Below, piece after piece: positions 39,532 through 50,087 of a stretch of 61,524 bases of DNA. The translations under genes and the position numbers were made by a program. Source of the stretch: Deltaproteobacteria bacterium. GTDB taxonomy: Bacteria; Myxococcota_A; Polyangia; JAAYKL01. The notes beneath the pieces are model-generated. The model ran no database searches. It saw only the letters and a program-made list of their open reading frames with translations, and was not told where the DNA came from. Positions within the stretch are counted from its first letter, which is position 1, and every line of letters begins with the position of its first letter. The stretch lies in assembly GCA_030595125.1 (NCBI GenBank), contig JAUVDV010000027.1:1-61524 (forward strand). The letters are read 5' to 3'.

Positions 39532-40380
39532 ATGGCTTTTATCTGGAAAACGACACTTACCTTGTTAATGATTGTCACGCTGGTTCCCATCTCTTGTTCA
39601 ACCAAGAATAGCCCCTATAGCAGTTCGGATAGTGATTCCGATTCCGACTCCGATTCCGACTCCGATTCCGACACAGACACGGATTCCGACACGGATACAG
39701 ACACGGATACAGACACGGATACTGACACGGATACTGACACGGATACTGACACGGATACCGACACGGACACCGATACGGATACCGGCACCGACACGTCCAC
39801 CTGCTACTGGGATCTGAGTTCCTACTCCAGCTATGATTCCATCTCGACCTCGGGAAACACGCTCTCCTTGAGCGACGACCAGGTATCGGCGCCCATCAGC
39901 ATTGGATTCGATTTCGATTACTATTTCGATTCGATGTACACGGACGTGCGTGTCGTTTCCAACGGTTTCATTTACGCCGGACTGATCGGAACCTTGACCA
40001 CCTATTCCAACGAGCCCATCCCGACAGCCGGTGGGCCCAACGGCTTCATGGGGATCCTCTGGGACGACCTCAACCCGTACTCCGGCGGCATGATTTACTA
40101 CGAGACCAGCGGCACTGCTCCTGACCGGCAGTTCACCGTGGAGTGGAACGCGGTTCCTTATTACGGAACCAGTGACCCGGTTAACATGCAGGTGATCATC
40201 AGCGAGAGCGGCGGCATCCTGTACAAGTACATGAAATTGGACTCTCCGACCGCCCACAACAACGCCGGCTCTGCGACCATCGGCGTGGAGAAACACTCGG
40301 GAGTGGCGGGCGTTCAGCACTCCCACAACACAACCGGAGCGGTCACGTCAGGCCAGCAGCTCGAACTCATCTGCCCGTAG
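39532..40380 (+). CDS. Lipoprotein with long Asp-Thr linker, tandem paralogue B
   Basis: 282 residues. It has nearly the same signal peptide (MAFIWKTTL), lipobox VPISC and globular domain as the preceding gene. Its linker is about 37 residues longer, extended by DT dipeptides (residues about 32-88). The extra length is in six-base units, so frame is kept. GCAGGAGAG precedes ATG. It shares the GGCGGCATGATTTACTACGA block and other long identities with paralogue A, so the duplication is fairly recent. Confidence 0.87.
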   Translation: MAFIWKTTLTLLMIVTLVPISCSTKNSPYSSSDSDSDSDSDSDSDSDTDTDSDTDTDTDTDTDTDTDTDTDTDTDTDTDTDTDTGTDTSTCYWDLSSYSSYDSISTSGNTLSLSDDQVSAPISIGFDFDYYFDSMYTDVRVVSNGFIYAGLIGTLTTYSNEPIPTAGGPNGFMGILWDDLNPYSGGMIYYETSGTAPDRQFTVEWNAVPYYGTSDPVNMQVIISESGGILYKYMKLDSPTAHNNAGSATIGVEKHSGVAGVQHSHNTTGAVTSGQQLELICP

Positions 40381-43963: not shown

Positions 43964-44896
43964 CTACCGCCCAGGCGGAGGGGATGGATTCCGGAGCACA
44001 GGTTGGTCGCTTCTCCCGACGATGGTGATACCGATCACTATTAGTACCAGAGCCGCCAATACGTAGGCCGTGGCTACCGGTTCACCGAGAATGATACCAC
44101 CGAGGGCCACGCCGGAGATCGGGATCAGAAAGATGTAGGAGTGAATGGCCACCACTCCGTATCGCTGCAAAAGGGTGTTCCACAGCACGAAACCCAGGGA
44201 CGCGGTGAGCAGGCTCTGATACGCCAGGGCGCCGATGACGGGTGCGGTTATCTTCACAATCATGACCTCCCCGGAGGCGGCGGCGGCCACTAATAACAGT
44301 GGAACCATCATCAGCATGGGAAAAAGGGCGATCTGGAACGGTTGGTAGTTATCGATGATCCGCTTGATGAATATGGCGTTTCCTCCCCAGAGGATGACCG
44401 CCAGGAATACCAGGAGATCACCCGTCCTGATCTCGTCCGTGACCCCTTCCCTCTGCAGAAACACTACCAGGACACCGACGAAGCCCATGGAGATTCCGAT
44501 GATCTTTTTCATGTTGATGCGATCGCCGGGCACGAAGAAATGGGCCAGGACCAGCACCAGGAAAGGTTGCAGGTTGGAGATGAGGGTGCTTCTGGAGGCG
44601 CTGGTCTTGTCGATCCCCATGTAGAAGAGGGCCGTCTGTCCGGAGAAAACGGCCGCCAGGATAGTCACCTGCCGCAGCTGGCCCCGCTTCAATCGAAAGG
44701 AATGGCCGTTCGCGAACGCCCAGATGGAAATGGCCACCGCCGCGATTGCAAACCTGGTGGCGGCCAGGGTGAAGGGGCCCATGCCGGCAAGGCAGATCTT
44801 GATGGCCACCGCGTTTGCCCCGAAGGAAATGCACAGGAGGGACGTCAGGACGGCGGCGCCGGGCGGAAGTTTACGGTTTCCCTTGTAGGACTTCAC
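43964..44896 (-). CDS. EamA/DMT-family transporter
   Basis: 310 residues from the GTG at 44896 (MKSYKGNRK), which follows the stop of the upstream gene by four bases. A longer in-frame start at 45013 runs through the coding sequence of that gene and gives an Arg-rich tail with no transporter character. Ten membrane helices in two EamA halves (FGANAVAIKICLAGMGPFTLAATR and LVFLAVILWGGNAIFIKRI). It exports or imports metabolites; the substrate is unknown. Confidence 0.88.
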   Translation of the reverse strand: MKSYKGNRKLPPGAAVLTSLLCISFGANAVAIKICLAGMGPFTLAATRFAIAAVAISIWAFANGHSFRLKRGQLRQVTILAAVFSGQTALFYMGIDKTSASRSTLISNLQPFLVLVLAHFFVPGDRINMKKIIGISMGFVGVLVVFLQREGVTDEIRTGDLLVFLAVILWGGNAIFIKRIIDNYQPFQIALFPMLMMVPLLLVAAAASGEVMIVKITAPVIGALAYQSLLTASLGFVLWNTLLQRYGVVAIHSYIFLIPISGVALGGIILGEPVATAYVLAALVLIVIGITIVGRSDQPVLRNPSPPPGR

Positions 44897-44900
44897 GGGG

Positions 44901-45293
44901 TCACCCAAGTATAAGCCCACAGTCTCCGCACGCGCCTTCAACCAGCGGTCCCACGGTTCCACAGGCCGGGCAGGCGACCTCCCCCGCAGAGTTGGGGCCC
45001 ACCGGCACGGCATGGGCCACCGGTATAAGGCCTTCCCTGGCCAGTCCTTCCTCCCACTGGACGCGCATGAGAGCGCCCAGTTTGGGAACGTCTGCCTCCT
45101 CGACGAGGAGGCTACCCTTGGTGCTTCAGCCCCCCGAGGAACACGGGCCGATAATCGCGGGTATATCCGCCGCCAGACACTGGTCCTGTAGCTTTTTTAT
45201 CGCGGGCAGATCCGCCTTGACCGCCGTCACGAGGGTCCCCCCCTCCTCGATCCTCCGCTCAATGATCTCCCGCGCTTCGCTCTCGCTTTCCAT
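44901..45293 (-). CDS. Candidate selenoprotein: DUF2007-like domain plus zinc ribbon, in-frame TGA at codon 56
   Basis: Read through one TGA (45126-45128), the frame gives 130 residues starting MESESEAREIIERRIEEGG. It continues through ADIPAIIGPCSSGG-TGA-STKGSLLVEEADVPKLG and ends with a zinc ribbon CPACGTVGPLVEGACGDCG (Cys108, 111, 122, 125). Both sides of the TGA are in one frame and belong to one coherent fold like DUF2007-type proteins. The TGA position follows Cys51 by five residues, a redox-like C-x4-U. A GC-rich hairpin begins 13 bases after the TGA. The stop lies four bases before the EamA start. The alternative is a nonsense mutation or sequencing error in a Cys codon. Confidence 0.65.
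45094..45128 (-). promoter_or_regulatory. Putative bacterial SECIS: TGA with downstream hairpin
   Basis: On the minus strand the TGA is followed by 13 bases, then GCCTCCTC, loop GTC, GAGGAGGC: an 8-bp perfect stem with G first in the loop, 21 bases after the TGA. GGG (45117-45115) and CCC (45086-45084) could extend the base of the stem. The spacing and loop agree with the general rule for bacterial selenocysteine insertion elements. Confidence 0.55.
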
Positions 45294-45358: not shown

Positions 45359-46447
45359 TTACTCGAAACCCTGTCCAGCTTTTCGCCAGATTGCCAAGCC
45401 GGGTTCCGACACCTCTATTTCAAGCGCCCGCTCATAGATCGCCCGGTAAGCTTCTTCAACGACCTCGGGGTAGGGAATCGGTGAGTACATCAGCGCGTCA
45501 GTGACGAACCAGTCCCACCCAATATAGATGGCGAGCATCACGCTTCTATCGGCGGCCCAGGATGTGGCCATCGTAGAATTGAACTCCTTCTGATGTGGAG
45601 AAACTGCAAGCATGATTGCTTTAGTAACGTCGTTGTCTGAGGCCTTCTGAACAAAGTGATACAGATCCTCCTCTTGGACGGACTTGTCTCGAACTTCTAT
45701 TGCCCTTTCAAGTTGGGGCTCGTCGGCGACTTTTCGAATGCCGACGTCACCGGGAAACCTGCGATCCGGGTCATTGACTCTGCCAACCGATACTCGATCT
45801 TTGGACGTAAGAACGTCCATCATCCCGGCAGCGACAGCTTGAGCCCTTCGTCCGTATTCACCATCCGCTTCAACAAATCGGGGGATCAGATCGATGAAAG
45901 CGGCGAGTGATAACTGCTTCCCGGCGCCACTGGCCAGACCCTTTGCTTTTTGACGGCGCCTGAGTCTTGTATAGGCACGCAGACCCTGCTTCGCCTTGTT
46001 TTCGGTATCGTATGCCTTGATGTGCTTGAGGGCCTCCAGGAGAAGATCCAGAGCGCCCCGTGCGTTGCCTTTTACTGGAAGGGCTTTCGAGATCTTGTCT
46101 TTGGCGAAGAACGGTTGGTTGTTGAGTGGCTCACGCCCGGTGACACCCAGGTCAATTCCAAGCCGAGGAGCGTGTGCTGCGAGAACGTGCTGGCAAAGAC
46201 TCCTTGCTGAGTATGCACCTGGCGTATCAAGGCCGGACTTCAACGCAAAAGGATCGATTTCAAGATGAGTTGCCCTTGCGAGGAGAGCTGTGCCGAGAGC
46301 TGCAAGAAACGTCTTGTTGTTCACAGAACACTCGTCACTGAGTCTCTGCACAAGAACCAACATTTGCTTGTCAGCGTGTCCGCTTGTCGCCGTGCGAACA
46401 GCCTCTTCGAGCACGACGCGAGCCTTTGCCTTGTCGATTTTCATCAT
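45359..46447 (-). CDS. SacI-family type II restriction endonuclease
   Basis: 362 residues, cytoplasmic. The recognised family features are KSGLDTPGAYSARSLCQHVL, LGIDLGVTGREPLNNQPFF, RRAQAVAAGMMDV and NDPDRRFPGDVGI followed by RAIEVRDK. The last pair gives Asp234 and Glu251 in an arrangement like D...E-x-R/K of PD-(D/E)XK nucleases. By family it should cut GAGCTC, but specificity needs testing. It is divergent from a cytosine-5 methyltransferase, and the DNA is AT-richer than the neighbouring operon. Confidence 0.82.
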   Translation of the reverse strand: MMKIDKAKARVVLEEAVRTATSGHADKQMLVLVQRLSDECSVNNKTFLAALGTALLARATHLEIDPFALKSGLDTPGAYSARSLCQHVLAAHAPRLGIDLGVTGREPLNNQPFFAKDKISKALPVKGNARGALDLLLEALKHIKAYDTENKAKQGLRAYTRLRRRQKAKGLASGAGKQLSLAAFIDLIPRFVEADGEYGRRAQAVAAGMMDVLTSKDRVSVGRVNDPDRRFPGDVGIRKVADEPQLERAIEVRDKSVQEEDLYHFVQKASDNDVTKAIMLAVSPHQKEFNSTMATSWAADRSVMLAIYIGWDWFVTDALMYSPIPYPEVVEEAYRAIYERALEIEVSEPGLAIWRKAGQGFE

Positions 46448-46636
46448 GGCCTCCGACGATCAATCTCTCGCCTCTGCACAGCGCTCGGAGCAGCTCAAGA
46501 AGCGTAAACGAGAGAGAAAGAGAGCACGTAGATCGATGCTATCGTTCCGGGGTCATGGTTCGCAATTTTTTGGCCAGACCTAGGGTGGAGAATATCCAAA
46601 AATTATCCCAATATGCTGAGAATTAAGGATTATTAG

Positions 46637-46692
46637 GGGTGGAAGCCCCCTTTAAAGCAGGGTAAAGTATACCTATACAAAGGTACAGGTAC
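46637..46692 (+). promoter_or_regulatory. Leader with hairpin and operator-like palindrome before the methyltransferase
   Basis: A GGGG-TGGAAG-CCCC hairpin followed by TTT (46637-46653) is succeeded by GTATA-CC-TATAC (46668-46679) and a direct repeat GGTACAGGTAC (46682-46692), just upstream of the ATG at 46700. No separate C (controller) protein gene is seen. The methyltransferase may regulate itself through its basic N-terminus. Confidence 0.35.
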
Positions 46693-46699
46693 TAGAGCG

Positions 46700-48031
46700 A
46701 TGGTCACCAATCGTCGGAAGAGGAAAAAGACAGGGCAACAACTACCTCTGATCAGTGTTTGCACTGGCGCCGGGGGGTTGGACATAGGCCTGAGTCAGGC
46801 CGGTTTCTCGCCCAAGGTGTGCATCGAACTCGACTCCTTCTGCAACAAGACAGTTAAAAAAAACCACAAGAACGCGTGGCCGATCATCGAGCGCGACATG
46901 GCGAAAGTTCCAACCAGGGAGATCCTCGACCTCGCTGGCGTGGACGTCGGCGAAGCGGGTCTCCTCGCGGGAGGGCCACCGTGTCAACCGTTCTCGAAAT
47001 CTGGTTATTGGGCGAGGACGAAGGAAAAGCCGGGCGGTATGGAGGACCCGAGGGCGGATGCTTTTCGTCACTACCTGAGAATTCTTGAAGAGACTCTTCC
47101 CAAGGCTTTCCTGTTGGAGAATGTTTTTGGGTTTATCTACAAGAAGAAAAGCTGGCCAGGAGACTACGAACCACCTATCGACTATATGCAGCGCTACCTC
47201 GACGGGATCGAGGAGCGAACAGGTGCTCGTTACTCTCTTTCCTATCGCGTTGTGAACACCGCAGACTATGGCGTTCCCCAGGTGCGGGAGCGGGTGGTGA
47301 TCATTGGGTTGAGAGACGGAGCCGAGTTCGAATGGCCCGAGCCCACTCATTACGATCCAGAGGGAACCCGTCGTGTGCGCCTGTTGGATAGATTGATAAG
47401 CAATTTGGCTTCGGACCTAAAAAGAACCAGAAAAAAATCCGTTCGCAGGAAGTACGAAGAACGGTTGCGGCGCCTGCTCAAAGAGAACAGCGACGGAGAT
47501 AAGAACCAGCTTTGCTTGCTTGATAAACTTGAACTCGACCTCGAAGAGCTGGCAACCATCGAGCGCGTACCTGCACCTCGCAAGGGCATGAAGCCGTGGG
47601 TTTCCTCGTTTGACGCAATCGGTGACCTCGATGAAGATCGCAAACCGGCGCCGGAAGAAGAGGTCAACGGCAAGTGGGGACACCTGCTCCCAGCGATACC
47701 GCCGGGGTTCAATTACCTCTACTACACTGAGAAGCTCGGAGCAGATCCAGCCCTCTTCGATTGGCGAAAACGCTACTGGACGTTCCTTCTGAAACTGAAC
47801 CCCGACCGCCCCTCTTCAACCATCCAGGCGCAACCAGGGCCATACGTCGGCCCGTTTCACTGGAGAAATCGGCGCCTCTCCGTAATGGAGATGAAGCGCC
47901 TGATGACGTTCCCGGATGACTACGAAATCGTTGGGCCTAGGCGAGAGGTTCAGAGGCAGTTGGGGAATGCTGTTCCGTGTTTATTGGCTGAAGTATTTGG
48001 CCGCGCTGTCAAGCGGCAGATCAGCCCGTAG
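46700..48031 (+). CDS. DNA (cytosine-5) methyltransferase of the restriction system
   Basis: 443 residues. Motif I is VCTGAGGLDIGL, motif IV is GGPPCQPFSKSG with catalytic Cys95, motif VI is LENVFGF, motif VIII YGVPQVRERVVIIG and motif X near QLGNAVPCLLAEV. All are in the usual order, so the enzyme should be active. It protects the host DNA from the divergent SacI-like nuclease. The basic N-terminal RRKRKK stretch could bind DNA. No clear RBS precedes the ATG at 46700. Confidence 0.94.
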   Translation: MVTNRRKRKKTGQQLPLISVCTGAGGLDIGLSQAGFSPKVCIELDSFCNKTVKKNHKNAWPIIERDMAKVPTREILDLAGVDVGEAGLLAGGPPCQPFSKSGYWARTKEKPGGMEDPRADAFRHYLRILEETLPKAFLLENVFGFIYKKKSWPGDYEPPIDYMQRYLDGIEERTGARYSLSYRVVNTADYGVPQVRERVVIIGLRDGAEFEWPEPTHYDPEGTRRVRLLDRLISNLASDLKRTRKKSVRRKYEERLRRLLKENSDGDKNQLCLLDKLELDLEELATIERVPAPRKGMKPWVSSFDAIGDLDEDRKPAPEEEVNGKWGHLLPAIPPGFNYLYYTEKLGADPALFDWRKRYWTFLLKLNPDRPSSTIQAQPGPYVGPFHWRNRRLSVMEMKRLMTFPDDYEIVGPRREVQRQLGNAVPCLLAEVFGRAVKRQISP

Positions 48032-48043
48032 CAGGAGGGGCAA

Positions 48044-49006
48044 TCAAACTGCCTGTATCTCGGTATTTGCGACAATGTCGATTAGTTGTTTCTCTTCGTC
48101 CAATAATTCGTGTTCCCACTGGCAAAGGCGAGGTCTGTCAAGAAACGTTGCAGCGCGTCTTTCGACGATGAAGTTCAAGTGGTCCGAACTAATATGGTGA
48201 GGAACAGCCAGAAATCTGATCGGTAAACACATCATGCCGAGCAACTTCCGCCACTGGTCTGGACTTGCATCAGTTATCTTCTTTTCCCATGTTTCACTCC
48301 TTCCACAGGTTACCTGGCCAATAAATACCCAGCGTCCGGGTCTTTTGTCACCCAAGCGAATTTGAAAAACAGTGTCCACACCGGAGTCGTTTGCATATAT
48401 TTGTCTCCACGCCGCCGAAGGGGTTGGGTAGATTTCGAGGTGGTCTCCTAGCTCATTGACAATGTCGTCAATGTTCCTGCCAGCTGTGATTTCGGATGCA
48501 ATGCTCCTGGAAATGAAACCTCTTCTACCCATTGCCTTATGGACACATTCCTCAAAGGTTTTCCTTGGGTCAGGGCCTCCAGCAAGATGATAGGCATGAA
48601 CTAATGTGATTGCTAACAAACCGTTGTAGGCACAGTGCTGTGGGCCGCTTAGGACGATTTTGCCTTCCTCCAGCTTAAAAGGGTAGCGATCTCCCAAAAG
48701 GCTTTTCCTGATCTCGATTAACGCAAAGACTCTGTTTGCGAATTCCTGTGCCCGATCTTCCCTATCCGAATCGTCGTTACCCTTGCTCTCGTCGGGGGCT
48801 TCAGAACCATTAACAAGATCTGTTGGTGGTCCGGTAAAGTGTTCTCTCAGCTTCCCGAGCCACTGGCTATCTTCAATGTAATCGCTCAGTTGTGCTTCTG
48901 ACATTGATGGGGAGTGAAATGCCTGTATCTCTAGGAAATCTGCGAGCGCTGATTCTCTTGCGTAGATCCCATATAATTCGATATCGGGCTCGATGATATC
49001 AGTCAT
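48044..49006 (-). CDS. Putative nuclease-like protein paired with a ParB-domain protein
   Basis: 320 residues from the ATG at 49006, which overlaps the upstream stop (ATGACTGA). An N-terminal acidic helical region is followed by HCAYNGLLAITLVHAYHLAGG and a C-terminal block SGVDTVFQIRLGDKRPGRWVFIGQVTCG. The latter resembles the D...(E/Q)-x-K/T core of PD-(D/E)XK-like proteins (Asp211, Gln231, Thr233) with a missing Lys, so activity is uncertain. The stop lies 12 bases from the convergent methyltransferase stop. No named family recognised. Confidence 0.6.
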   Translation of the reverse strand: MTDIIEPDIELYGIYARESALADFLEIQAFHSPSMSEAQLSDYIEDSQWLGKLREHFTGPPTDLVNGSEAPDESKGNDDSDREDRAQEFANRVFALIEIRKSLLGDRYPFKLEEGKIVLSGPQHCAYNGLLAITLVHAYHLAGGPDPRKTFEECVHKAMGRRGFISRSIASEITAGRNIDDIVNELGDHLEIYPTPSAAWRQIYANDSGVDTVFQIRLGDKRPGRWVFIGQVTCGRSETWEKKITDASPDQWRKLLGMMCLPIRFLAVPHHISSDHLNFIVERRAATFLDRPRLCQWEHELLDEEKQLIDIVANTEIQAV

Positions 49007-50087
49007 CCGTTTGACGCTTGGCGATAACAACGCTCTTGATGCTTTTCGCCTTAATAAGAAGCTCCCCAGCCCAGGATTCGAGCGTCTCTGACCAGGAAGC
49101 ACGTTCGATCTCGGAAAAGACTACGGTGCATTGATCAACGAGGTCTCGTAATCGGTTTTGGATTGAAGCCTCATTCACGACTTTTGCTGCAATTCCAAAA
49201 TCCCCATACTTCCTTAGAGCAGCTCTCGCGTTGTCGTTTAGCAAGATACGACCGTAAGTTGTCGTCTGTCGCGAATCTGAGATGAGAGGTTTCCTGGATT
49301 CCTGAGGTTGTAAATCATTGAGCACTTCGTTCAGCTGCTCCTTCTTGAGCCGTATGAGGGAGTACTCGATTTCCTGAACCTCGCGTCCACGGTCGAAGCC
49401 GATGTACGACATGATGTCGGCAGAATTCATTATTCTGTACCAAACACCAAAACGATGATGATGAATATACTGAGTTTCAATCCCAAACTCATCTGTCGCG
49501 TATTGCAGGATACGTAACGCTGTGTATGAGGTTCTCACACCCTGGGTGTTGCTTCCGACGATGCGTCCGACAGCAAGAAATGGCTCCTCGACACCGCGTT
49601 CAACTGCTGCTTTCACTTCTGTGATTATGTAGCGTGCTTTTGCTTCCGCACTCCATTTAAGCTGCCCCCCGATGTGACGAAAGCCCAAGAAAGCGCGAAC
49701 GTCGGCTCGTGAACTCTCGACAATGCATGGGACTTCGTCCAGCCGTTTGAGTTCAGCTGCAATAGGTTCGCGATCCAAGTGACCGACTCCATCTGCATCT
49801 GGGTCATTGTGAAGGACTTTAAGCGCAACAAGTCGGCGATTGCCCTCAAGTACCACATACTTTCCCGCATGGGTTTCGGACGGTATTACAATTAACGGTT
49901 CGTGAGGAAAGAACCCGTAGTCGAGCATTGAGCGTACCAACTCGCTTACTTTTGTTTGTTCCCACAGATGTTTGAGTACCACGTCGGAGCTTTCCCCCAA
50001 CAAGCTCACAGGTAGCCTGGGATTGCTAGAGTCTAGCTCAAGCTTTTTGACGGGAAGTAACTCGCTTAGAGGTGTTTCACCGGGCAA
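48999..50087 (-). CDS. ParB/Srx-like N-terminal-domain protein
   Basis: 362 residues. The ParB-type CTPase/nuclease core is seen in LPVKKLELDSSNPRLP and KYVVLEGNRRLVALKVL (Glu81, Gly82, Asn83, Arg84, Arg85). The rest is helical without a chromosome-partition HTH, and no parS or parA is near. Related stand-alone ParB-like proteins occur in defence and phage contexts. It is the first gene of a two-gene operon with the preceding entry. Confidence 0.78.
   Translation of the reverse strand: MPGETPLSELLPVKKLELDSSNPRLPVSLLGESSDVVLKHLWEQTKVSELVRSMLDYGFFPHEPLIVIPSETHAGKYVVLEGNRRLVALKVLHNDPDADGVGHLDREPIAAELKRLDEVPCIVESSRADVRAFLGFRHIGGQLKWSAEAKARYIITEVKAAVERGVEEPFLAVGRIVGSNTQGVRTSYTALRILQYATDEFGIETQYIHHHRFGVWYRIMNSADIMSYIGFDRGREVQEIEYSLIRLKKEQLNEVLNDLQPQESRKPLISDSRQTTTYGRILLNDNARAALRKYGDFGIAAKVVNEASIQNRLRDLVDQCTVVFSEIERASWSETLESWAGELLIKAKSIKSVVIAKRQTDD

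Follow-up and report, generated by a model that had tools for sequence, protein, structure and literature searches.

The window analysed here, a 61,524-nucleotide stretch of contig JAUVDV010000027.1 (assembly GCA_030595125.1), carries on its minus strand a frame of 130 codons at 44901-45293, which holds a single in-frame TGA at codon 56 (45126-45128) and ends with a TGA stop. Reading the internal TGA as selenocysteine (Sec, U), the 21st amino acid, gives MESESEAREII...IGPCSSGGUSTKGSLLVEEADV...CPACGTVGPLVEGACGDCGLILG, a protein of 130 residues followed by the TGA stop; ordinary ORF calling returns two 55-residue ORFs in its place (45126-45293 and 44901-45068, both on the minus strand). The sequence-only reading had described a coherent 130-residue protein divided by a TGA into frame-matched halves and had given no strand. 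Such a protein is present on the minus strand, and the plus-strand reading of 44901-45293 is meaningless. Further TGA-split frames across the window, judged by eye, yielded no convincing second selenoprotein, and no promoter- or terminator-like site was found by consensus around the gene. The features of the locus are listed below.

44901..45293, minus strand: predicted selenoprotein coding sequence, complete from its ATG to its TGA stop and encoding 130 residues, residue 56 being Sec (frame; homologues with the same TGA)
45126..45128, minus strand: predicted Sec codon, a TGA at codon 56 (column occupied by TGA in 22 distinct genes of the family and by Cys in 14)
45094..45112, minus strand: predicted SECIS hairpin of 8 bp with apical loop GUC (45102-45104), 21 nt from UGA to loop (folding; compensatory pairs; absent in Cys forms)
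45141..45143, minus strand: codon of Cys51, inferred Cx4U partner of Sec56 (Cys within nine residues before Sec/Cys in 33 of 36 members)
45177..45179, minus strand: codon of Cys39, which closes helix alpha-1 (20 of 22 Sec forms have Cys here)
44919..44972, minus strand: predicted C-terminal zinc ribbon CPAC-x10-CGDC, residues 108-125, 3' of the TGA (invariant in aligned homologues; sub-threshold Pfam zinc-ribbon matches)
43964..44896, minus strand: gene for an EamA-family transporter (PF00892, 117 bits), whose probable GTG start lies 4 nt past the stop of the selenoprotein gene

Since the EamA gene starts so close to the selenoprotein stop, co-transcription of the two is likely in the source genome. 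The earlier proposal of co-transcription with EamA therefore probably holds for this genome but does not extend beyond it, the link being absent in the other genomes compared. No conserved neighbour or operon partner was found in the stretches compared with congeners and other genera, the gene context gave no functional hint, and the gene appears to be free-standing. Adjoining it upstream, positions 45359-49102 hold a probable type II restriction-modification unit and a further ORF. The unit comprises a SacI-type endonuclease (PF09566, 144 bits, minus strand) and a C-5 cytosine methylase (PF00145, 169 bits, plus strand); beyond them lies a 352-residue protein (48044-49102, minus strand) that has no Pfam match. 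These restriction-modification genes may account for the uniqueness of the upstream flank. Horizontal transfer had been suggested because the gene matches its congeners and the flanks do not, and it is not needed as an explanation, selB itself being about 90% identical between these genomes. Elsewhere in the window, 39626-39806 is coding DNA for an Asp/Thr/Ser repeat (DTDTDSD...) that is found again at dozens of sites in the congeners, in lipoprotein-like ORFs.

The protein was present in 17 of 59 related genomes searched. One TGA per gene, at the same place, was found in two congeners (94-95% identity), three family members (53-54%) and four remoter genomes, and most of the remaining full-length matches among the related genomes carry Cys at the TGA column. 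Both the Sec and the Cys sets grew when 379 genomes of the phylum were searched with a profile, and a scan of named genomes located the family in Kofleriaceae, Archangium, Myxococcus and other Myxococcota or 'Deltaproteobacteria' assemblies. The comparison set comprised 36 distinct genes: 22 from many Myxococcota lineages, the studied gene included, have the TGA in the same column, and 14 have Cys there. The expectation that relatives would carry Cys at the TGA site was thus confirmed, with GGU-STK in the Sec form aligning with GCGC-SPK and PSC-SPK in the Cys forms. In a tree built with the Sec/Cys column masked, two Sec/Cys changes were needed, both forced by well-supported branches; Sec and Cys appear to have been exchanged at least twice in the Myxococcota subfamily.

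The survey also recovered a large set of double-ribbon Myxococcota relatives (L028 in G036, L055-L058 and L083-L104) that have neither Sec nor Cys at the column, which suggests that these relatives either lost the redox residue or never acquired it, while both ribbons were retained. In one congener the selenoprotein gene occurs twice, each copy at the end of a contig (L121, G002:C237:23-412; L122, G002:C323:2-190). The second is truncated before the Sec codon and is syntenic with the copy in G001, and the pair reflects either gene duplication or a repeat at which the assembly broke. A further member, L069 (BNCN01000012.1), is labelled Comamonas sp. KCTC 72670. The tree joins it firmly to Archangium and Myxococcus, and it has neighbouring genes in common with Myxococcus L071, so it probably comes from a mislabelled or contaminated myxobacterial genome.

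A nonsense mutation or a miscalled base that divided a Cys gene would account for the two halves returned by ordinary ORF calling, and the locus is known from a single draft assembly. Against this, the identical TGA occurs in 22 distinct family genes from independent assemblies, and the source genome is Sec-competent. The half downstream of the TGA is moreover constrained at the protein level. Among the three congeners compared, changes 3' of the TGA fall mostly at third positions (for example 2, 2 and 9 at codon positions 1, 2 and 3) and the ribbon cysteines are kept, which together indicate that this half is translated. A pseudogene or sequencing error is thus extremely improbable.

The hairpin was found as the sequence-only reading had stated, a perfect 8-bp stem with loop GUC that begins 13 nt 3' of the TGA. 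Its fold (-16.9 kcal/mol, z -2.3) was equalled by 6 of 200 shuffles, and by itself the z-score is suggestive. Published rules for the bacterial SECIS (bSECIS) specify a loop of 3-9 nt, a stem of 4-16 bp, a distance of 16-37 nt from the UGA, a G within the first two loop bases and a minimum free energy of at most -7.5 (PMC13188914). The hairpin lies within all of these limits and resembles the bSECIS consensus in its 3-nt loop starting GU, its 8-bp stem, the 21 nt from UGA to loop and its folding energy of -16.9 kcal/mol. An Rfam search with the hairpin returned no SECIS family match.

Comparison across the family places the hairpin far beyond chance. A hairpin at the SECIS position, with compensatory changes, is present in 22 of 22 TGA genes and in 0 of 14 Cys genes. 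In 20 of the 22 TGA genes the stem has 6-8 pairs, unbroken or almost so, in exactly the register of the studied gene. Within these 20 genes, 86.3% of cells were paired, compared to 43-55% when the arms were slid; double-changed cells numbered 12, against 5.2 in shuffles (0 of 500), and the covariation score was 0.200, against 0.073 in shuffles (0 of 500). Applied to the 14 Cys genes, this register gave 42.0% pairing, comparable to the slid registers. The four inner pairs of the eight in the stem are invariant and fall within the part that encodes the conserved LLV/E peptide; they are uninformative alone, and part of the hairpin could be due to protein conservation. Synonymous shuffles of single genes in the studied register gave p values from 0.015 to about 0.5. 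Two TGA genes that are remote in the tree (L051 and L052) have LAVAS in place of LLVEE and carry an unlike hairpin, GCUCGCGGUCGCGAGC, at the same codons; they are unpaired under one strict register and pair in a register with a 4-nt loop. This unlike hairpin at the same codons is the single strongest sign of selected RNA structure in the analysis.

All four sel genes were found in the source genome (5.39 Mb in 203 contigs, 95% complete). selA scored 456 bits and selB 351 bits, over cut-off, and selD (389 bits) has an in-frame TGA of its own (GSG-TGA-GCGTCCAAG). The tRNA-Sec gene (selC) scored 61.9 bits against a gathering score of 47 and has the anticodon TCA within CUUCAAA. Either selA or selB was over cut-off in 20 of 20 tested genomes with the Sec form; both were missing in 6 of 11 tested genomes with the Cys form or neither form (one-sided Fisher about 6e-4, calculated by hand). 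Several sel genes are absent among the Sec-form genomes, which probably reflects assembly gaps.

Alternatively, the UGA could be recoded to another residue (Trp or near-cognate read-through), or could act as a regulatory stop that yields products of 55 and 130 residues, and some partial termination does occur at any recoded UGA. However, the residue that replaces it is Cys in 14 genes and never Trp, and the studied gene itself uses TGA as its terminal stop. The restriction of the SECIS-type hairpin to TGA forms and the occurrence of Sec machinery in all Sec-form genomes tested likewise argue against such decoding, which we consider very improbable. Because the TGA/Cys column is shared, the hairpin is limited to the TGA forms and the Sec machinery is present, we conclude that the UGA at codon 56 is almost certainly recoded to selenocysteine and that the gene is intact, which practically excludes a nonsense mutation, an error of sequencing or chance as the cause. 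SelB and Sec-tRNA(UCA) would insert selenocysteine at codon 56, guided by the GUC-loop hairpin directly 3' of it. The proposal that ordinary ORF calling had overlooked a selenoprotein gene is thus borne out by homologues with Sec or Cys at position 56, by the sel genes and by agreement with the SECIS rules.

Pfam gave no domain above cut-off for this protein, the individual zinc-ribbon models all being sub-threshold, and PDB searches by sequence and by fold gave no significant match. The ribbon is nevertheless clear by eye, and the normal C-terminal zinc ribbon proposed earlier was recovered as CPAC-x10-CGDC knuckles, the cysteines of which are invariant in the aligned homologues. An AlphaFold model based on an 18-sequence alignment (mean pLDDT 83, pTM 0.60) shows, in order, an N-terminal helix, a strand (21-28), a helix (29-41), a strand (46-49), the Sec56 loop, a strand (59-65), a helix (66-86) and the ribbon. 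The model suggests a beta-alpha-beta-beta-alpha domain in which the loop joining strands two and three carries Sec; the CPAC/CGDC ribbon comes after this domain. The protein is probably cytosolic.

A Cys lies at most nine residues before the Sec or Cys in 33 of 36 members, with a commonest spacing of exactly five (Cx4U or Cx4C). Three Sec forms are missing the loop Cys; Cx4U is therefore not shared by every Sec form, and it is motif logic that points to the redox role. Given the loop Cys pattern, the model and the ribbon, a selenol redox centre with Cys51 is the best reading, and we lean slightly towards a small thiol/selenol redox protein in which Sec56 is the reactive selenol and Cys51 the resolving residue. 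Resolution would proceed by way of a Cx4U selenylsulfide between Sec56 and Cys51, and the zinc ribbon may stabilise the selenoprotein or dock it to a partner.

The main rival to this role is that of a metal or chalcogen carrier or sensor, in which Sec56, together with Cys39, Cys51 and the ribbon, would bind a soft metal or selenium/sulfur species in place of redox chemistry. The loop is Cys-rich, and the layout resembles that of DUF3343, which has a similar strand-helix-strand-loop-Cys-strand order; the source genome also has a true DUF3343/Se_S_carrier gene (L124, G000:C179:15921-16121; 69 bits), of a kind present in 7 of 284 genomes of the phylum. A profile comparison with DUF3343, however, gave a probability of 4-5% and aligned elsewhere, and no selenium- or metal-handling gene adjoins the locus. 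We therefore consider a carrier or sensor unlikely and retain the thiol/selenol redox protein as the preferred reading.

With respect to known families, the suggestion that the protein is DUF2007-like did not hold, as Pfam gave no DUF2007 match at E up to 10. The model does contain a similar small alpha/beta element, and 2hfv (RPA1041), which we take to be a solved DUF2007 example, was among the very weak fold matches, but that match is not significant (E 0.47). Homology to DUF3343/Se_S_carrier (PF11823) had been suggested by one weak Pfam match and by topology. Each has a small domain in which a Cys follows the second strand, and hhalign found no relation between them.

The kind of selenoprotein found here is already known, and its nearest family is DG. 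The NCBIfam model NF049953, 'zinc ribbon-containing (seleno)protein DG', matched the whole protein at E 5.4e-12 and 46 bits, against a cut-off of 130, and was matched by 18 of 18 aligned family members; none of the 379 Myxococcota genomes passed the cut-off of 130 bits, the best score being 116.5. The DG selenoprotein was reported from Desulfosediminicola by deep-Sep (mSystems 2025, PMC12013277), the family is also in the list of PMC13188914, and the published Sec motif of DG is GUxG (in a review later than the deep-Sep paper). Our literature search found nothing on this protein in Myxococcota.

The protein shares with DG a C-terminal ribbon, the exchange of Sec and Cys, and similarity along the whole protein. 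In contrast, its match starts at model position 42 and leaves 1-41 unmatched, which indicates that the N-terminal CxxC ribbon of nearer DG relatives (seen in L077) is absent, and its Sec motif is GGUSTK where that published for DG is GUxG. In scoring against the DG model, Cys at 55 or 56 added 3.6-4.8 bits relative to Ala, a larger gain than the other tested positions gave, and the Sec columns of DG and the studied protein therefore probably agree within one residue. From these sequence comparisons we conclude that the protein and DG are of common descent. It is not filed as a DG member because both the cut-off and the architecture fail; it instead represents a divergent, short Myxococcota subfamily, related to yet distinct from DG and not named by the curated NF049953 model.

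The chances are evenly poised that this subfamily is a family in its own right. Its members would then be Cx4U redox proteins with one ribbon each, belonging to Sec-using Myxococcota and differing from DG in target and function, and the coding-region SECIS would have dictated LLV[EQKR]E. This peptide, which follows the active site, is not found in the Cys forms. Because the hairpin and the E after LLV accompany Sec and are absent with Cys, the set of 22 Sec and 14 Cys genes offers a clean natural comparison of the constraint that a coding-region SECIS places on its own peptide. These results would leave the picture of the Sec insertion mechanism unchanged. They would add a selenoprotein subfamily that is coherent, occurs across many lineages of Myxococcota, lies below the NF049953 cut-off and is split by ordinary ORF calling, and would also widen the known range of the DG superfamily.
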